From assembly GCF_003730195.1 (NCBI RefSeq), contig NZ_QWGG01000001.1, positions 620,001-684,000 on the forward strand: a stretch of 64,000 nucleotides of DNA, given 5' to 3'. Shown one piece after another: positions 715 through 52,491 of this stretch (position 1 is the stretch's first letter; each line of letters opens with the position of its first letter). Below the pieces are notes generated by a model. It saw nothing but the letters and a program-made list of their open reading frames with translations, had not been told where the DNA came from and did no database searches. This DNA is from Halosimplex salinum (GTDB taxonomy: Archaea > Halobacteriota > Halobacteria > Halobacteriales > Haloarculaceae). Made by a program: the position numbers and the translations under genes.

Positions 715-890
715 GGGGTCGTGGCCAAGTCCGGCATGGCGACTGACTCCAGAGGCAACGCGCCCGGGACGACACTCCAGCTGATATACTGAACGGGTCG
801 GCTGATCACTGACCCTGTGATGACCCTCTGGGGTTCCGAGGCGCAACCGGAGATATCAGTCGATCGGGGGTTCAAATCCCTCCGACCCCA
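715..890 (+). tRNA. tRNA-Trp (CCA anticodon) with intron
   Basis: The acceptor strands GGGGTCG (715-721) and CGACCCC (883-889) pair perfectly, with discriminator A890. The D arm, the anticodon stem ACTGA/TCAGT, the loop CTCCAGA with anticodon CCA at 749-751, and the T arm GGGGG-TTCAAAT-CCCTC are all present. The anticodon loop is interrupted after position 37 by an intron of about 102 bases, which gives a mature tRNA of about 74 nucleotides. CCA is not encoded. In haloarchaea the tRNA-Trp precursor is known to carry such an intron, removed by the splicing endonuclease at a bulge-helix-bulge. A promoter-like GGGCTTACC lies about 20-25 bases upstream. Confidence 0.95.
753..854 (+). ncRNA. tRNA-Trp intron, probable box C/D methylation guide
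   Basis: The intron lies between tRNA positions 37 and 38. It contains a box C-like GTGATGA at 817-823 and several box D-like CTGA tetramers (781, 789, 802, 809). Right after the C box, CCTCTGG (825-831) is complementary to CCAGAGG (749-755), which spans the anticodon and the 5' splice site. In Haloferax volcanii the equivalent intron is known to guide 2'-O-methylation of the tRNA-Trp precursor at C34 and U39. That function is inferred here from position and box elements. The exact intron ends may shift by one base. Confidence 0.8.
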
Positions 891-19792: not shown

Positions 19793-20770
19793 TCAGAAGT
19801 CGCCGAGCGTGGCCTGGTTGGCTTTCAGGGACTGGGCGGGGTAGCCCAGTTCCGACGTGATGGCGGTGGCGAACTCGTCGGCGAAGCCGTGCTGGGTGTA
19901 CACCTGCTCGGGGTCGACGGCGGAGACGAGGGCGAGGAGTTCGTCGTAGTCGCAGTGGTCCGTGAGGACGAACCCCTCGTCGAAGCCCCGACGGTAGACG
20001 AACGAGTCGTCGACGGCCCATCCCGAGAACCCGGCGGTGACAGCACCGGTCGACTCGACCAGCGACTCGACCCAGGGGCTCCGTGGCGACCCCGAGCAGA
20101 CGAGCGCGTCACCGGCGCCGAGTTCTCCCTCTGAACCGTAGCGCTCGCCGGGGAAGGTCACGTCGCGGTGGTCCTCGATCACGTCGCTCACGTCAGCGAC
20201 GGCGTCCGTGACGAACACGCGGTCGCGCGGCGAGTCCGCGAGGAGTCGCTGGAGCTTCTGCGCTCGCCCCAGCGCGTACCCGAACATGAGGACGGGTCGA
20301 TCCATCGTCTCCGCCAGCCACGACCGGATCGCGTCGACCGATTCCTCCGTGGATGGGAACCGATATTCGGGCTTCCCGTAGGTCGACTCGAGTATCAGCA
20401 CGTCCGCGTCGACGGGGTCGAACCCGTCGAGGTGGAAGCGGTCCCGCGTCGAGCAGTCGCCGGTGTAGAGGTACCGCCGGCCGGTGTCGGGGTCCGTGAG
20501 CCGCATCGCCCGCGAGCCGACCACGTGGCCCGCCGGAAACAGTTCGGCCGCCGGGTGGTCGACCGCGGTCGGGGCCGCCCCGCCGCGCCGGGCGCCGACC
20601 AGCGCGGCCGTCAGGTCCGAGGCGACGACCGCCGACCCGCTGGCGTAGTGGTCGCCGTGGGCGTGGCTCACGAGCGTCGCGTCGGCGTCGCCGCTCCCGT
20701 CCGCGACGAACCGCTCGCCGCCGGCGAACGTGATCTCGATCCCACTGCGTAGCCGAACCCGCCGCGTCAC
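19793..20770 (-). CDS. Metallo-beta-lactamase-fold exonuclease / mRNA 3'-end-processing-like protein
   Basis: A 325-residue protein of the metallo-beta-lactamase fold. Metal-binding motif SHAHGDHYASG (HxHxDH) lies near residue 37, followed by FPAGHVVGSRAMRL, YTGDCSTRDRFHLDGF and LESTYGKPEYRFP, and near the C-terminus LTDHCDYDELLALV. This is the group annotated as ligase-associated exonuclease or mRNA 3'-end processing exonuclease in archaea. The GTG at 20770 is chosen because a TATA-like CGTATATTCG lies about 27-30 bases upstream, which fits a leaderless transcript; a second GTG at 20791 lies inside that promoter. Confidence 0.85.
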   Translation of the reverse strand: MTRRVRLRSGIEITFAGGERFVADGSGDADATLVSHAHGDHYASGSAVVASDLTAALVGARRGGAAPTAVDHPAAELFPAGHVVGSRAMRLTDPDTGRRYLYTGDCSTRDRFHLDGFDPVDADVLILESTYGKPEYRFPSTEESVDAIRSWLAETMDRPVLMFGYALGRAQKLQRLLADSPRDRVFVTDAVADVSDVIEDHRDVTFPGERYGSEGELGAGDALVCSGSPRSPWVESLVESTGAVTAGFSGWAVDDSFVYRRGFDEGFVLTDHCDYDELLALVSAVDPEQVYTQHGFADEFATAITSELGYPAQSLKANQATLGDF

Positions 20771-20930
20771 GCCCGCCCGTTGGCCCCTCACTCGAATATA
20801 CGTGTCGTCGGGCGGCCCCACGCCCGGCGCGCTGCCCCACGCCCTGCCCACCGCCCGACCGCCGCCACGCCGCCATCAGTTTCACCGACGGTCGACTCGC
20901 GAATCGCCGGCAAGCGGCCGTCTGCATTCA

Positions 20931-20976
20931 CTTTCACTTCCGCTCCGGGGTAGGCTGGCGTTTTATAGCCCGGAGT
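20931..20976 (+). promoter_or_regulatory. Promoter and operator of the PolB2 operon
   Basis: A 21-base element at 20931-20951 (beginning ACTTTCACTTCCGC) is repeated exactly at 24425-24445 before another operon. TTTTATA at 20962-20968 lies 28 bases before the ATG, a leaderless arrangement. The TATA box is flanked by an inverted repeat CTCCGGG (20944-20950) and CCCGGAG (20970-20976), a likely repressor or activator site. An AGTTTCAC lies further up at 20878. The hexamer ACTTTC fits ANTTTC, the element reported upstream of DNA-damage genes in Sulfolobales. Its role here is inference. Confidence 0.7.
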
Positions 20977-20992
20977 CCGTCGGATACGGGCG

Positions 20993-21703
20993 ATGCCAGA
21001 ACCTGTCGACGTTCCGACCCTCGATCCCGGGCTCACGCTGTTGCGCCCGCCCGGGCCGCGCTCGACGGCGATCCATCGTCTCGCGCTCGCGACACTCGCC
21101 GAATCGACCGGGGTGGCCTACTGGGTGGACGCCCGCAACGCCGCCTCGACGTACACGCTGTACGACATCGTACACTCGCCGCGCAGGCTCAGAAATCTCC
21201 GGGTGGCGCGGGCGTTCACCGCCTATCAGCACCACGCGCTCGGACGCCGCGTCGTCGAGCGGGTGGACGGGCGGACCGGACTGCTCGTCGCGCCGAACGT
21301 CGCGTCGCTGTACCGCGACGAGGACGTGCCCCGGTACGAGCGCGAGCGCCTGCTCGACAGCACCGTCCGGACGTTCGCGGCGCTGGCCGACGCTCGCGAG
21401 ATCCCGACGCTGCTCAGCGTGCCCGCCGGTCGTGACCCGGGCCCGGCCGCCGAGCACGCCGACCGAATCATCCGGTGTGAGCGGACGGAGATGGGGTATC
21501 GCTTCGAGGGACCGGGCGTCGAGACGACCGTCTACTGGGACGAGGGGTACTGGCAGACGACCATCCCCTACTGGGTCGACCTGCTCGGCGTCGCGTCCGA
21601 GTCGCTCGGGCCGGGAGTCGATCCGGTCGGAACCGGTTCGCCGGAGCCCATCGAACAGATCAGTCTCGCCGCGGCGGCCGGCGCGGCGGGGGGCGCGGAC
21701 TGA
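20993..21703 (+). CDS. Inactivated RecA/RadA paralogue of the PolB2 operon
   Basis: A 236-residue protein. The order of elements follows the RadA/RecA core. The Walker A region is degenerate (RPPGPRSTAIHRLA, without GKT). GVAYWVDARNAASTYTLYDI sits where RadA has its IDTE strand. LRVARAFTAYQHHAL closely mimics the RadA VARAYNSDHQ helix, and the Walker B strand lacks its Asp (GLLVAPNVASLY). It is therefore unlikely to hydrolyse ATP. Comparative work has described inactivated RadA-like genes next to archaeal polB2. By analogy with bacterial ImuA, it may recruit the polymerase to damaged sites; that is inference. First gene of a three-gene operon, sharing one base with the next. Confidence 0.8.
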   Translation: MPEPVDVPTLDPGLTLLRPPGPRSTAIHRLALATLAESTGVAYWVDARNAASTYTLYDIVHSPRRLRNLRVARAFTAYQHHALGRRVVERVDGRTGLLVAPNVASLYRDEDVPRYERERLLDSTVRTFAALADAREIPTLLSVPAGRDPGPAAEHADRIIRCERTEMGYRFEGPGVETTVYWDEGYWQTTIPYWVDLLGVASESLGPGVDPVGTGSPEPIEQISLAAAAGAAGGAD

Positions 21704-22017
21704 TGGGCCGGACCAATCCCACGTATCGGGACTTCCTCCGGCGACTGGAAGACGACTGGCGCTCCTTCCGACGGGGACTGCGCCGGCGCTCCCAGAGCGA
21801 CTTCGACCGGCTGTTCGAGCGGGCGCGCGACCACGCCGACGCCGCGGGCTACGCCAACGGCACCGACCCCGAGTTCGCCTTCCTGCTGTCGGTCCTGGTC
21901 GCACAGGAGCGCGAACTCCGGGAACTGCGCGAGCGAGTCGACGCGGTCGAGACGGACCGCGGCGACGGGGGCGACGCCAGCCCCGCTTCGGTCGGTGCCG
22001 GGACCGGGACCGAGTGA
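21703..22017 (+). CDS. Small helical protein of the PolB2 operon
   Basis: A 104-residue protein, very rich in Arg and Asp/Glu, with helical segments (TYRDFLRRLEDDWRSFRRGL, then FAFLLSVLVAQERELRELRE) that may form a coiled coil. It ends in a disordered Gly/Ala/Ser tail. I recognise no domain. The gene overlaps both neighbours by one base (TGATG), so all three proteins are probably made in fixed ratio. A small protein has been reported at this place in other polB2 loci. It may bridge the RadA paralogue and the polymerase. Confidence 0.75.
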   Translation: MGRTNPTYRDFLRRLEDDWRSFRRGLRRRSQSDFDRLFERARDHADAAGYANGTDPEFAFLLSVLVAQERELRELRERVDAVETDRGDGGDASPASVGAGTGTE

Positions 22018-24314
22018 TGTCTCTGCTCACTCCGGAGTTCCGGCCGGACGGGACGGTCCGCGAGTGGCACGCGACGGCCGACGGCGTGGAGACCCGGGTG
22101 AACGACGACTACGCGCCCTCGCTCTCCGTCGCGGCGCCCGACCCCGTCCGGGCGGACCTCGCGGCCGCGCTGGCCGCCGACCCGAAGGTCGTCGAGACGG
22201 CGACCGAGCGCCGCTACCTCTCGCTCGATGCGGACGAACGCGAGCCCGTTCTCCGAGTCGACCTCGCCCGCGTCGACGAGGTACGGACGCTGGCTCACGA
22301 GATCCTGTCCCACCACGCCGCCGACTACGCGCCGGGGACGGTGCGGCTCTACGACGTGGACCTCGCGCCGGGGTTTCGCTACTGCGTCGACACCGGGACC
22401 GCGCCGGTGCCCGAGCGGGAGTTGCGCCGGCTGGAACTGTCGATCCCCGAACGCGCGCTGGCCGAGGACGACCTGACCGCGCTCCGGGTCGACGGCGAGG
22501 CGCTTCGCGCCTCGAAAGCGAGCGGGGACGGGGGACCCGCGAGCCGCCAGGCCGACCGCGCGGTCCTCGACTCCCTCCGCGAGCGCGTCGAGGTGGTCGA
22601 TCCGGACGTGCTAGTCTGTTCGACCGCCGAGCTGATCCCGCGGTGTCACGAGCGAGCGGAGGCGCTCGGGCTCGACGACTTCCGGCTGGGGCGGGCGGAC
22701 GGCTACGAGCGCCTCGCCGGCGCGAGCACCTACGAGAGCTACGGACAGGTGGGTCACTCGCCGGCCCGCTACGCGCTCCCCGGACGAGCCATCGTCGACC
22801 GGTCGAACAGCTTCCTGCTCGGGAAAGCCGGGCTGCCCGGACTGCTCGACCTCGTGGGTCGGTCGTGGCGGCCGCTCCAGGAGACAGCCCGCGGCTCTAT
22901 CGGGACGATCCTCACGTCCATCGAGATCAAGGAGGCACGCGAGCGGGACGTGCTCGCGCCGTGGAACAAGTGGGAGCCGGAGGCGTTCAAGTCGGTCGGG
23001 ACGCTCCACGACGCCGACCGCGGCGGGTTCACGTTCGCGCCGGAGCCGGGAATCTACGAGGACGTCGTGGAGGTCGACTTCGCCTCCCTCTATCCCTCGA
23101 TCATGCGCGAGTACAACGTCAGCCCGGAGACGGTGAACTGCGACTGTCACGATCGGGAGGACGTGCCCGGCCTCGGCTACAGCGTCTGCGAGGACCGGGG
23201 CTTCCTCGCCGACGTGCTGGGCGGCCTCATCGACGACCGCGCCCGATTCAAGGAGGAACTCGCCGAGTTGCGCGAACGAGCGGCGACGGACGCGCTCGAT
23301 GTGGCCAGTGGAGACTATCAGGCCACGCACGCCGAACCGGACGGCGACTCGCCGGTCGCCGAGCGCGTCGCCGCGCTGGAGGGGCGGATTGACGCGCTGA
23401 AGTGGGTGCTCGTCTCCTGTTTCGGCTACCAGGGCTACCGGAACGCGAAGTTCGGGCGCATCGAGTGTCACGAGGCGATCAACGCCTACGCTCGCGAGAT
23501 CCTGCTGGACGCCAAGGAGCGACTGGAGGCCGGCGGCTGGCGGGTCGTTCACGGGATCGTCGACAGCCTGTGGGTGCAACCGCGGGCGGCGGATCCCGAG
23601 CCCATCGACGAGATCGCGGCCGTCGTGTCCGAGGACGCCCGCATCTCGCTGGAGGTCGAGGCGCGCTTCGACTGGGTGGCGTTCGTCCCGATGCGGAACT
23701 CGTCGGCAGGCGCGCTGACGAAGTACTATGGCAAGGTCGCCGGCGCCGATCCGGAAGACGATGACGCGTTCAAGTTCCGCGGGATCGAGACGCGTCAGCG
23801 CTCGACGCCGCCGTTCGTCGCCGCGGTCCAGCGCGACCTGATCCGGACGCTCGACGCCTCGAACGAGAGCGGTGAGCGAAGCGAACCGCGAACGGAGCGA
23901 CCCGCGAGCCACGACCCCGAAGCCGTCTGCGACCGCCTCGCTCGCGCGCTCGGTCGGCTGGAGCGCCGGGCGGTCGACGCCGAGGACCTGGTGATCCGAC
24001 AGCGCGTCTCGAAGTCCGTCGAGGCGTATGCCCAGCGGACCCGGACGGTCGCGGCGCTGGAGCGGACGGCGGCCCACGGACTTGAGCGACCGCCGGGAAC
24101 GAGCGTCGAGTACGTCGTCGTCGACGACGGGCGAGGAGACGCCGACCGCGTCCGGCTCCCGTTCGAGGACGCGAGCGACTACGACGTGGAGTTCTACCGC
24201 GAACGTCTGATCCGCGCGGCCGAGAGCGTCGTCTCGCCGCTGGGGTGGGACCGCGGGCAGATCCGGCGGTACCTCCGCGACGGGCGGGACCTCACGCTCG
24301 CCGCCTTCGAGTGA
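22017..24314 (+). CDS. polB2: Family B DNA polymerase PolB2 with altered motif C
   Basis: A 765-residue family B polymerase, similar in length to other PolB2. Motif A (EVDFASLYPS) is intact with Asp354. Motif B has Lys462 (LKWVLVSCFGYQGYRN). Motif C, normally YGDTDS, reads HGIVDS at 512-517: the first Asp is replaced, but the second, metal-binding Asp (516) is kept. The exonuclease motifs are lost (DPDVLVCSTAELIP in place of the DNFD type), so it should lack proofreading. This pattern fits a translesion polymerase; Saccharolobus Dpo2 has been reported active in such synthesis. The last gene of the operon, overlapping the small protein gene by one base. Confidence 0.9.
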   Translation: MSLLTPEFRPDGTVREWHATADGVETRVNDDYAPSLSVAAPDPVRADLAAALAADPKVVETATERRYLSLDADEREPVLRVDLARVDEVRTLAHEILSHHAADYAPGTVRLYDVDLAPGFRYCVDTGTAPVPERELRRLELSIPERALAEDDLTALRVDGEALRASKASGDGGPASRQADRAVLDSLRERVEVVDPDVLVCSTAELIPRCHERAEALGLDDFRLGRADGYERLAGASTYESYGQVGHSPARYALPGRAIVDRSNSFLLGKAGLPGLLDLVGRSWRPLQETARGSIGTILTSIEIKEARERDVLAPWNKWEPEAFKSVGTLHDADRGGFTFAPEPGIYEDVVEVDFASLYPSIMREYNVSPETVNCDCHDREDVPGLGYSVCEDRGFLADVLGGLIDDRARFKEELAELRERAATDALDVASGDYQATHAEPDGDSPVAERVAALEGRIDALKWVLVSCFGYQGYRNAKFGRIECHEAINAYAREILLDAKERLEAGGWRVVHGIVDSLWVQPRAADPEPIDEIAAVVSEDARISLEVEARFDWVAFVPMRNSSAGALTKYYGKVAGADPEDDDAFKFRGIETRQRSTPPFVAAVQRDLIRTLDASNESGERSEPRTERPASHDPEAVCDRLARALGRLERRAVDAEDLVIRQRVSKSVEAYAQRTRTVAALERTAAHGLERPPGTSVEYVVVDDGRGDADRVRLPFEDASDYDVEFYRERLIRAAESVVSPLGWDRGQIRRYLRDGRDLTLAAFE

Positions 24315-46778: not shown

Positions 46779-47347
46779 CGTGATTTCGGACGTGCCTGGT
46801 TGTTTCGCGGCGGCACGAACCGTGTCGATACCCACGTTCTCCGGCGATTTGGGGCTGTCGCTTCGGCGGATATCTATGAAATATTTGGGGTGCGGTGGCG
46901 CGCGCTGTCGCGAGTCTCGTCTCGCGCCAGCACCGTGCGAGGGATGAGTAACGCAGGAGCGAAGCGACGAGTAACGCAATCGGATGGGGAGGTGTGTGGC
47001 CGTCTGCAGTGCCGTGTGGTGCGGTCTGCTGGGTTGTCCTGGCGGACTGAAAGGGCGAGGCGCGCTCGCGTTTATTTCAGTCGCCTGAGCGGCCCCTATC
47101 CGCGCGAGTGTGGTGCTGTGCGGTTGTCCGAGCGCGGATAGGCCGCTCAGCGACCGCGAGTGCGAGGTGCGAGCGAAGCGAGCACCTCGACATGCGAACG
47201 GCGAACGGAGTGAGCCGTGAGCGAGCGGGTCGAGGGCTTTCAGCGGCTGCTGTCGAGTACGGGTGAGATGACTGCTAGCGAGCGGGTCGAGGGCTTTCAT
47301 CGCTCGCCGTCGTTCGCTCCAACCGACGCTCCTCGACTCCAAACCCC
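46779..47347. other. 570-base intergenic region, mostly structured
   Basis: No convincing gene is present. Bases 46860-46890 are AT-rich (GGATATCTATGAAATATTTGG) and may be the promoter region of the helix-hairpin-helix gene or of a plus-strand RNA. GAGTAACGCA occurs twice (46945 and 46969). The region from 47041 to 47299 contains several hairpins and a direct repeat and is described separately. Confidence 0.5.
47041..47299 (+). ncRNA. Candidate structured non-coding RNA or palindromic element
   Basis: Three hairpins follow each other. The first has GACTGAAA (47045-47052) against TTTCAGTC (47075-47082), with an inner GCGAG/CTCGC. The second is long: CTGAGCGGCC..TATCCGCGC (47085-47105) against GCGCGGATAGGCCGCTCAG (47132-47150), about 19 pairs with two bulged Cs and a 26-base loop. 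The third has CGAGGTGC (47163-47170) against GCACCTCG (47182-47189). A 22-base direct repeat starting at 47221 and 47278 follows and contains GGGCTTTCA, complementary to TGAAAG of the first hairpin. Strand is uncertain. Confidence 0.5.
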
Positions 47348-47956
47348 TCAAAGCGCCTTCATCGCGTAGTAAAAGCGCTGGAGCGCGGTGAAGTGGCCGA
47401 CGACGGCGAAGAAGACCAGCAGCCACCCGACCACAGTAAGCCCCGAGAACGACCCCGTGACGAACGCGGCGACGGTACCCACGAGAACGACCAGCGCGAG
47501 GCGGTCGGCGCGGCCGACGAGGCCGCCGTAGACGCGGTCGAGGCCGACGGCCTGGGCCTGCGTGCCGAGGTAGGAGGTCATCAGGACGCCGGTCACGGCG
47601 GCCAGACCGAGGGCGTAGGCCTCCAGCCCGGCGGCGAGGCCGGCGATGACGACGATGTCGGCGTAGCGGTCGAGGACGTGGTCGAGCAGGTCGCCGGCGG
47701 CGCTGCCGGTGCCGGTCTCGCGGGCGAGCTCGCCGTCGACGAGGTCGAGCCAGCCGTTGAGCGCGACGGCGACGGCGCCCCCGAGATACAGGAGCGGGTC
47801 GCGGCGCGGGGCGACCACGAACGCGGCGGCGCCGACGACGGCGAGCGCGAACGCGATGACGCTCACGCCGTTGGGCGTCAGCCCGACACGTTTGGCGAGG
47901 GAAACCGACGGCCTGACGGCGCCCTTGACCGCGGGGCGGAACCTGTCCAGGGTCAT
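47348..47956 (-). CDS. CDP-alcohol phosphatidyltransferase (archaetidylinositol-phosphate synthase type)
   Basis: A 202-residue membrane enzyme with about six helices. The family motif D-x2-DG-x2-AR-x8-G-x3-D-x3-D is complete: LDLVDGELARETGTGSAAGDLLDHVLDR, read here as DLVDGELAR then GDLLDHVLD. It transfers an alcohol phosphate to a CDP-activated archaeal lipid; among archaea the closest use is archaetidylinositol phosphate synthesis. It is the last gene of an operon with hisC and the AK6-like kinase, 13 bases after the kinase stop. Confidence 0.9.
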   Translation of the reverse strand: MTLDRFRPAVKGAVRPSVSLAKRVGLTPNGVSVIAFALAVVGAAAFVVAPRRDPLLYLGGAVAVALNGWLDLVDGELARETGTGSAAGDLLDHVLDRYADIVVIAGLAAGLEAYALGLAAVTGVLMTSYLGTQAQAVGLDRVYGGLVGRADRLALVVLVGTVAAFVTGSFSGLTVVGWLLVFFAVVGHFTALQRFYYAMKAL

Positions 47957-50221: not shown

Positions 50222-51838
50222 TCAGAGGTCCGAATCGACGTGGTCGGCTGCTTTGAGCGCCAGCGCCGCGATCGTGAGCGTCGGGTTCATCGCCCCGCTC
50301 GTCACGAACACGCTGGAGGACGCCACCGAGAGGTTCGCCACGTCGTGGGTCCGCAGGCGGGAGTTCACGACGCTCGACTCGGGGTCGGTCCCCATCCGCG
50401 TCGTCCCCATGTGGTGTGCGGCCGGTCCCGTGTTCTCCGGGCCGACCGTCCACTCCACGTCGGCCCCTAACTCCTCCAGTACCCGAGTCTGGATCTCGTT
50501 GGCTCTGGAGAGCGTCCGTCGGGTCCGGTCGTCGAGCGACCACTGCACGTCCGGGACGGGGTTGCCGTGGTCGTCGGTCGTCGACGGGTCGAGTGCGATC
50601 CGGTTGGCCGCGCGCGGAATCTGGCCGACGAGCCCGCCCATCGCGACGTGCGTCCCGTAGCTCTCGCGGAGCGTGTCGAGCAGGTCGTCGCCCCACTCGT
50701 CGGAGCCGAGCGCCTGCTCGACCGGCGAGGGGCCCGCGTAGTTCAGGAACTCCAGTTTGATCGGGCCCACACCGTCGAAGTCGTTGTCGTAGTACTGGTG
50801 GGACTCGGTGGTGTTGAAGCCGACGTGGTTCTGGCGCGTCGGCTCGTCGAGCGTCCCGCCGACCCCGGCGAAGAGGTGTTCCATGAAGTACCGCCCGACG
50901 AGGCCGCTGGAGTTCGCGAGCCCGTCGGGGTGGGCGCCAGAGCGCGAGAGGAGCAACAGTCTCGGGATCTCGATGCCCCCTGCGGCGAGGACGAACTGTC
51001 GTGCGTCCTGCCGGTGTTCCGTCCCGTCCGGCGCGGCGTACACGGCCGCTGTCACGCGGTCACCCGGTCGGTCGGTTTCGAGGCGCTGGACGGGGACCCG
51101 GTCGAGCACGCGGGCACCGGCCGCCTCGGCGGCCTCCACAGTGTGATCGGCGCTGTACTTCGCGCCGGAGGGGCAGACCGGCTGGCAGGTGCCGTAGCCG
51201 AGGCACTCGCCGCGGCCGTCGTAGGGTTCGGAGTTGCGGGCGTTCGGCACCGAGTGAGTCGCGATCCCCAGTTCCTCGCAGGCCTCGTCGAACAGCGAGT
51301 CGCTGTAGGAGGGCGGGAAGGCCGGGAGCGGATGGGGCTCCTCCCGCGGCGGCGCGAACGGATTGTCCGACGCGCCGGCGACGCCGAGCGCCGACTCCGC
51401 CTCGGCGTAGTACGGCCGCAGGTCCTCGTAATCGATCGGCCAGTCGGCGCCGACGCCGTCGCGCGAGCGGCGCTCGAAGTCCGACTCGTGGAGGCGCATC
51501 ACCATTCCCTGCCAGTGGAGCGTCGACCCGCCGACGCCCTTCACCCGCATCGCGTTCAGCGGGTAGAACAGGTCGCCGCTCGCGCTGAAGGCGTCGCGCT
51601 CGCCGCCCATCTCCCACACCGAGAGCGGGCCGTGAGCCGGTCGTATCGACCGCTCCATGCGCTCGCGACGCTCTGCCGGGTCGAATCGCGGCCCCGCTTC
51701 GAGGACGACCACGTCGTGACCGTGCTCGGCGAGTCGCGCGGCGACGAGCGCGCCCGCCGGTCCCGCTCCGACGACGCACACGTCGACTCGCTCGCTGGGC
51801 GTTCGGTCGACTGCGTCGTCGGTGTCGGTCGCGCTCAC
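50222..51838 (-). CDS. GMC-family FAD oxidoreductase
   Basis: A 538-residue flavoprotein. The FAD-binding motif VDVCVVGAGPAGALVAARLAEHG begins near residue 20, here read as VVGAGPAG then LEAGPRFD. VGGSTLHWQGMVMR is the second FAD signature. YGTCQPVCPSGAKYSA with two Cys, and near the end HHMGTTRMG and VASSSVFVTSGAMNPTLTI, belong to the GMC C-terminal region with its catalytic His. Substrates of the family are alcohols and sugars. The GTG at 51838 is chosen because the apparent promoter and iron box lie at 51900-51921; the TTG at 51907 would be inside it. Confidence 0.88.
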   Translation of the reverse strand: MSATDTDDAVDRTPSERVDVCVVGAGPAGALVAARLAEHGHDVVVLEAGPRFDPAERRERMERSIRPAHGPLSVWEMGGERDAFSASGDLFYPLNAMRVKGVGGSTLHWQGMVMRLHESDFERRSRDGVGADWPIDYEDLRPYYAEAESALGVAGASDNPFAPPREEPHPLPAFPPSYSDSLFDEACEELGIATHSVPNARNSEPYDGRGECLGYGTCQPVCPSGAKYSADHTVEAAEAAGARVLDRVPVQRLETDRPGDRVTAAVYAAPDGTEHRQDARQFVLAAGGIEIPRLLLLSRSGAHPDGLANSSGLVGRYFMEHLFAGVGGTLDEPTRQNHVGFNTTESHQYYDNDFDGVGPIKLEFLNYAGPSPVEQALGSDEWGDDLLDTLRESYGTHVAMGGLVGQIPRAANRIALDPSTTDDHGNPVPDVQWSLDDRTRRTLSRANEIQTRVLEELGADVEWTVGPENTGPAAHHMGTTRMGTDPESSVVNSRLRTHDVANLSVASSSVFVTSGAMNPTLTIAALALKAADHVDSDL

Positions 51839-51899
51839 GGCCGTCGCCCCCGTTCGGGACGGCCGACCGTCCGGTACCCCTGTGTCGTCACACCCGGGA

Positions 51900-51921
51900 T
51901 TAGGCAAACCTAAACTTAGGC
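51900..51921. promoter_or_regulatory. DtxR/Idr-type iron-responsive operator
   Basis: TTAGG-CAAA-CCTAA (51900-51913) is a perfect inverted repeat, followed by a third half site ACTTAGGC. It matches the known DtxR-family pattern TTAGGnnnnCCTAA, used in haloarchaea by SirR/Idr regulators with iron or manganese. It overlaps the most likely TATA region of the minus-strand GMC oxidoreductase gene (AAGTTTAGG on that strand), so a bound repressor would block transcription. Confidence 0.65.
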
Positions 51922-52104
51922 GTTGTCATGCCGGCCGAGCCGTTACGGCGGAGAGCGGCGGTGCGGAGTACTTAATCGTCCGCGGCGACTACTTCGAGTG
52001 CGTGCCTTTAGTCCCCGCCCGAGCGTACCCGGATGGGAGCGATGACAGCGCGGAGAACCCGGGCACGCGACACACGAGTGGCGCCGTAAGCGCCCACGCA
52101 GTCC

Positions 52105-52333
52105 GGGACTCCTGACGGAGTCCCACCGCCGAGCGGTTCACGCCATCTCGGCATTCGGAGGCGCCTGACGGCGCCTCCCGCCTCAGCGGGCTTCGCCCGC
52201 TTCGGCAACCGGTGGCGCTAACGCGCCACCCGACTCGGCGGCTACCACCGCCTCGTCAAACGGGGACGCTGACGCGTCCCCCGCCTCTGCGGGCTTCGCC
52301 CGCTTCGGCAACCGGTGGCGCTAACGCGCCACC
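52105..52333. repeat. Regular array of perfect hairpins with TNAC loops
   Basis: Five perfect stem-loops start at 52105, 52157, 52211, 52262 and 52314, a spacing of 51-54 bases. Stems are 8-9 pairs and differ in sequence (GGGACTCC, GGAGGCGCC, GGTGGCGC, GGGGACGC, GGTGGCGC), yet the loop is always TGAC or TAAC. The 31-32 base spacers contain second palindromes (GCGGGC-TTC-GCCCGC at 52186 and 52289, GGCGG/CCGCC near 52238-52252) and end in TCGGCAA-like bases. 47 bases at 52186-52232 recur exactly at 52289-52335. The period is not a multiple of three, so it is not coding. Confidence 0.85.
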
Positions 52334-52491
52334 CGCCCGGCACGAGGGTTTCCCGGCTGACCCGGCACGCCGCCAGGGATGATGTCGGTCGTTAGTGTCC
52401 CGGGCGACATTCGACACCGAGTAGCTCCGCGACCGCCCTTCCGGTGCCGAGTAACACACCGTTAAGAGACCCACGTCCGAACCGCGTGCCA

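Follow-up and report, generated by a model that had tools for sequence, protein, structure and literature searches.

Guide RNA locus and hairpin array

The window, that is, the whole stretch of Halosimplex salinum DNA that we analysed (64,000 nucleotides), contains an array of five perfect stem-loops at 52105-52333. This array occupies the spacer that separates HP1 from HP2, the two guide hairpins of a haloarchaeal double-hairpin H/ACA pseudouridylation sRNA. The locus consists of the following features, in which A and B are the two hairpins of a repeated module and scores are those of a covariance model described below.

52000-52068, + strand: HP1, with lower stem GCGTGCC/GGCACGC, conserved pocket strands AGTCCCCGCC and GAACCC, and a GA..GATGA K-turn-like motif (28-locus alignment)
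52070-52072, + strand: ACA (ANA) box after HP1, ACA in most species and ATA in some
52080-52094, + strand: small hairpin ahead of the array, common to congeners without the array (L011)
52105-52124, + strand: hairpin A1, a lone A half-module (8 bp, loop TGAC)
52128-52178, + strand: module 1, with degenerate B at 52128-52152, linker ATTC and A2 at 52157-52178 (9 bp, TGAC); 27 bits, E=0.0021
52180-52230, + strand: module 2, with B at 52180-52206 (TC/TC), linker AACC and A3 at 52211-52230 (TAAC); 52.8 bits
52232-52281, + strand: module 3, with B at 52232-52257 (TC/TC), linker AAAC and A4 at 52262-52281 (TGAC); 54.6 bits
52283-52333, + strand: module 4, with B at 52283-52309 (TC/TC), linker AACC and A5 at 52314-52333 (TAAC); 52.5 bits
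52334-52406, + strand: HP2, whose pocket pairs with helix 69 of 23S rRNA (UAAC-U-AU-GACCCUC)
52407-52409, + strand: ACA (ANA) box after HP2

The five stem-loops, which had been reported in the initial annotation, were reproduced with starts at 52105, 52157, 52211, 52262 and 52314 and spacings of 52, 54, 51 and 52. Their stems are 8-9 bp long, the loops read TGAC, TGAC, TAAC, TGAC and TAAC in order, and elements 3 and 5 are identical. A scan for perfect 8/4/8 hairpins, which ends before the fifth one, counted four in 229 bp; each shuffled copy held 0.009 on average, and the whole 64-kb window has just nine. The second palindrome that had been noted in each spacer is present in all four intervals, though it proved to be one half of a two-hairpin repeat unit; it is degenerate at 52128-52152, and in the other three intervals its stem is broken by a 2x2 TC/TC internal loop. 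The module 4 region is a 95% copy of the module 2 region, with a 62-nt direct repeat at 103 nt.

When congeners were compared, the flanks of the array were constant while the array itself changed. All 96 of the family's high-quality genomes contain these flanks, and this family-wide conservation of the locus rules out a purely local repeat. The right flank, HP2, was also turned into a covariance model, which matches 384 of 391 genomes in the class, almost always in one copy. Both hairpins have a covarying lower stem (in HP1, for example, GCGTACC/GGTACGC among the 28 aligned loci), a K-turn-like GA..GAUGA motif and an ACA/AUA box right after the stem; a double-hairpin H/ACA guide RNA is laid out in this way. 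The GA..GAUGA motif, kept in both hairpin alignments, would form the predicted L7Ae K-turn. The ends of the sRNA transcript given here are inferred from conservation.

The two hairpins correspond to those of a published sRNA, for which Grosjean et al. 2008 (PMC2584109) give Psi2621 as the target of HP1 and Psi1956/1958 as that of HP2 (H. marismortui numbering); its hairpins are also treated, as Hvo1/Hvo2, in PMC4652768. In our sequence the HP2 pocket brackets the target U in the organism's own 23S rRNA through GUUA/UAAC and GAGGGUU/GACCCUC (L035). Nevertheless, when 23S rRNA was scanned for pairing with this pocket, several chance sites scored as many or more pairs, and the assignment of HP2 to helix 69 therefore leans on the published target. 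Against the U2621 region the HP1 pocket pairs by eye as AACCC-GGGUU on the 3' guide side and through about three pairs on the 5' guide side, a match left unranked in the scan. According to the same paper, HP1 and HP2 are "separated by a long spacer", and the array is this spacer. Our locus shares with the published sRNA the two guide hairpins, ANA boxes, K-turn-like motifs, match of HP2 to helix 69 and long spacer; the modular palindromic make-up of the spacer, its range of 0-260 nt and its relation to dispersed copies are not described in the accessible parts of PMC2584109 and PMC4652768. Likewise, no description of the content of the spacer was found in the open-access text of the literature. 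The array gives a content to this long spacer, which had lacked an explanation in a guide RNA that is universal among haloarchaea.

Of the options first offered for the array, that of a transcribed structured RNA agrees with its position inside an sRNA gene. In line with the initial annotation, it is not coding, and a CRISPR array was rejected because the repeats vary and the spacers are palindromic and partly repeated. Among the other options, no evidence was seen for a protein-binding array, and a recombination site gained no support. An Rfam search of the window at gathering thresholds returned tRNA only, and a relaxed search returned sub-threshold matches only, with none to RNase P or SRP RNA, which were discarded as candidates. 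No plasmid relatives were found.

Spacer modules across the family

An initial set of about 80 spacers was extracted and folded, and named loci were added later. Across the family the spacer can be as short as 0 nt or as long as about 260 nt, and the long spacers repeat one module of about 51-52 bp, composed of hairpin B, a 4-nt linker, hairpin A and one C. Hairpin B spans 26 nt, with 11-nt arms interrupted by a 2x2 internal loop, and hairpin A has 8-9 bp; the B-to-A gap measures 4 nt in 46 of 54 cases and the A-to-B gap is a single C in 34 of 48. When B hairpins were searched for with no constraint on the internal loop, 61 with an exact 2x2 loop were obtained, of which 47 had TC/TC; shuffled spacers gave 4.6 hits and 0.09 TC/TC. 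The stems themselves are diverse, with outer B stems reading GCC/GGC, GCGC/GCGC, GGC/GCC, GAC/GTC or GCAC/GTGC and inner stems taking 15 forms, and both sides change in six of nine B pairs. As the B elements were chosen for pairing, the percentage of paired positions is circular, which the diversity of the stems is not.

Comparable arrays, for which a search had been suggested as a check, thus exist in other haloarchaeal genomes, across the family and with compensated stems, and the claim that stem differences are compensated on the opposite arm was borne out. The fixed TNAC loop, in contrast, holds within the genus and fails across the family, where the loops include GTA, AGA, TTC and GAAC. 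The proposed covariance model was also informative: R2, a B-linker-A model built from other species only, recovers all four window modules, three of them at E=1.3e-8 to 3.2e-8 and the fourth at 2e-3.

The retention of TC/TC bears on whether the spacer could be a neutral expansion segment, in which local duplications accumulate in a tolerant spacer and palindromes are perfected by hairpin-templated (quasipalindrome) mutation. Such an origin would agree with how quickly the spacer changes inside a single genus and with the visible local tandem duplication. However, correction by template switching would erase the TC/TC mismatch, and its conservation in 47 of 61 hairpins argues against palindromes made in this way; nor does such an origin account for the matching modules of unrelated genes whose sites are empty in congeners. 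We therefore consider a neutral expansion very unlikely.

The modules could instead form a domain with a function in the sRNA, namely a repeated arm that binds protein or serves as a scaffold; the UC/UC loop would be its recognition motif, and selection on the RNA would maintain it. The invariant UC/UC loop, the constant lengths of arm and linker and the covariation all point in this direction, as does the occurrence of B-A modules beside HP2 in Halobacterium salinarum too. Furthermore, among the sRNA loci searched, 85 of 87 modules lie on the HP2 strand, an orientation that could reflect function at the RNA level or simply descent. A protein-binding arm would be in keeping with the strong strand bias and the constant UC/UC loop, but the species lacking a spacer and an inverted array speak against a need for one. 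The spacer measures 0-1 nt in two genomes (G051 and G046) and is a module-free 23 nt in the congener Halosimplex pelagicum (G005). The two remaining modules belong to a single genome, G073 (L257, 1329-1620), in which the whole array is reverse-complemented and the RNA carries GA/GA internal loops. An identical architecture also occurs inside protein genes, and this reading appears unlikely to us. Selection on the RNA fold, which the initial annotation had taken as the simplest explanation, is not supported as the sole one: the module is found in protein genes and in a ribosomal protein leader, is inverted in one sRNA and is absent with the spacer in some species, and the structure is therefore largely that of the element rather than of the host RNA.

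At one further sRNA locus (L009, genome G080) we noticed a weak HP2-like match (28.4 bits) at 1281-1366 on the minus strand, about 130 nt downstream of the real HP2, possibly a decayed duplicate of the guide hairpin.

Module copies outside the guide RNA gene

R2, trained on spacer modules only, also detected copies that lie outside the sRNA locus, with E-values of 7.6e-6, 5.8e-5 and 1.2e-4. Of the loci holding such copies, L255 and L258 show no match to HP2 at all, and L256 has only a weak one elsewhere. In the lipoyl synthase of genome G088, a 17-codon in-frame insert corresponds to one module (AANAAPDAEAADAAEGG), and several congeners have the empty site CWSG-RDGPG-TATFM. Similarly, the S15-Halobacteria leader is 66-67 nt long in six congeners but reaches 118 nt in the H. 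salinum genome, where one module makes up the additional 52 nt. Other in-frame copies lie in a SpoVR-like gene of the H. salinum genome (L289) and in a radical-SAM gene of G138 and G080. With the exception of lipoyl synthase, these gene names were read from the translations rather than taken from a database result. Two single modules lie elsewhere in the window:

22496-22546, - strand: single module lying in frame within the DNA polymerase B ORF at 20730-24314 (+), where it encodes approximately GEALRASKASGDGGPASR; a weak match (21.1 bits, E=0.039)
47163-47224, - strand: single dispersed module (23.9 bits, E=0.012), with near-identical copies at L372 and L373

The five coding copies seen all run antisense to their gene, and an ASG core is present in the peptide encoded by four of them, counts which come from a small sample. 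The coding copies in the 20730-24314 ORF of the window, L258, L288 and L289 encode similar peptides (SKASGDGGPASR, SERASGEPASREG, SERASGDSREHG and SDRASGGSRERG) in unrelated proteins, all through antisense insertion. Separate module-like inserts lie beside the same S15 leader hairpin in G144 (L349) and G113 (L350), which suggests a repeated target.

The number of copies was estimated with R3, a broader model trained partly on dispersed copies, whose E-values, on which the copy numbers rest, are rough. At E<=0.1, 19 copies were counted in the H. salinum genome and between 5 and 31 in each of the other relatives from the family, while G046, which has a 1-nt sRNA spacer, gave none. A core pattern matched 58 times in the organism's own genome and 15 times in a reversed control, and for this reason single matches to it were not trusted. 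In 675 kb of flanking DNA a loose descriptor gave only two TC/TC matches away from the sRNA, and copies are therefore either sparse or too variable for it. The stem sequences of copies within one genome are seldom alike, which is unlike a recently active element; the exception is three near-identical copies, at L372, L373 and L374 (window 47040-47390), which share about 70-90 bp. L372 directly follows a sequence resembling the 3' end of a tRNA. By eye, no clear target-site duplication was found at the lipoyl synthase and S15 inserts, where palindromic ends blur the boundaries.

Related elements and origin of the array

The nearest haloarchaeal precedent for such copies is the PATEs of Haloquadratum walsbyi (PMC3119063), which, together with the SMRs described there, resemble the modules in being haloarchaeal and transposase-free; they lack target duplications, of which no clear case was seen by eye at the lipoyl synthase and S15 inserts. 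SMR-A inserts into palindromes of other elements, and the modules into or next to a leader hairpin; SMRs, however, are 80-110 bp long and nearly identical to one another, unlike the modules. One may ask whether the module is a fusion of the left-end palindrome (B) with the right-end palindrome (A) of an IS200/IS605-type (TnpA/TnpB) element, a terminal-only PATE mobilised in trans as single-stranded DNA. Haloquadratum PATEs are transposase-free and diverse in sequence, have neither terminal inverted repeats nor target duplications, and are known in a terminal-only form of 52 bp as well (PMC3119063); B palindromes do lie just 3' of tnpB at two loci (L429 and L430). Nevertheless, the ends of PATEs match IS605 ends, whereas 28 of 30 tnpB loci have no B or B-A motif, and in L367 the B palindrome appears by eye to lie within another hairpin rather than to form the end. 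Such an origin is improbable in our judgement and, with a B palindrome at only two of 30 tnpB loci, we did not file the element under PATEs. The L367 case (G000:C24:123480-123830) is a B-type palindrome enclosed by the two arms of a different inverted repeat (CCCCACCCT..AGGGTGGGG), immediately 3' of a tnpB gene.

Two bacterial groups of elements offer further parallels. Rickettsia palindromic elements (RPEs; PMC10969869) are short palindromes that lie in frame in unrelated protein genes and leave those genes unbroken. The combination looked for in an RPE-like element, an in-frame palindromic unit with empty sites in relatives, is found here in lipoyl synthase, and the in-frame part only in the DNA polymerase B, SpoVR-like and radical-SAM genes. 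RPEs differ in being about 150 bp long, in falling into recognisable sequence families and in belonging to Rickettsia, while the element described here is archaeal, 51-52 bp long, formed by two hairpins with free stems, and tandem in an RNA gene. REP/BIME elements (PMC3733652) are likewise small palindromes with many dispersed copies, and BIMEs combine into multi-hairpin units; however, the copies described here lie inside coding genes, and the REP tag GTAG/CGTC at the foot of the stem is absent from the module consensus.

The initial annotation had also listed a palindromic mobile repeat among its options, and the unit does behave like a dispersed palindromic repeat. We regard it as probable that the array is made up of a dispersed bipartite palindromic element, similar to RPE and REP elements, which is repeated in tandem and tolerated in the sRNA spacer. 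An element of the module family would have inserted into this spacer, where it would be harmless because each module folds on itself and both guide domains are left intact. Tandem growth may then have occurred by duplication, as the likeness of modules 2 and 4 suggests, and would be accompanied by loss. Copies would last where they fold into closed hairpins, so that stems could drift with compensation. The fixed TC/TC mismatch, the constant arm length and the 4-nt linker would probably be recognised by a mobilising enzyme, conceivably on single-stranded DNA, by analogy with REP/BIME and IS200/IS605-type elements. It is possible, though on balance doubtful, that we are dealing with a shape-defined haloarchaeal mobile element, with two hairpins, an obligatory TC/TC 2x2 mismatch, fixed arm and linker and free stems, which would be copied via a folded single-stranded intermediate recognised by its shape and tolerated in RNA genes and protein linkers. 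Across the class, such an element would have given rise to inserts in RNAs and proteins that are specific to particular lineages.

The inserts illustrate how a structured RNA, a ribosomal protein leader and proteins (among them lipoyl synthase and the DNA polymerase ORF) can be enlarged by a short palindromic element without evident damage. Sequence-based repeat finders would miss an element with a conserved shape and a free stem sequence, and comparable families may therefore be overlooked elsewhere. The empty and filled pairs of the S15 leader and of lipoyl synthase make mobility and tolerance directly testable.

Two other features of the window were noted. A tRNA gene at 715-890 (+) extends over 176 nt against a 71-nt model, giving an intron of about 100 nt, and looks like an intron-containing tRNA-Trp. 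At 51903-51920, upstream of a GMC oxidoreductase gene (50222-51907, -), there is a TTAGGCAAACCTAA-type palindrome that resembles an iron-regulator (DtxR/SirR) box and is also found in G001 and G004.
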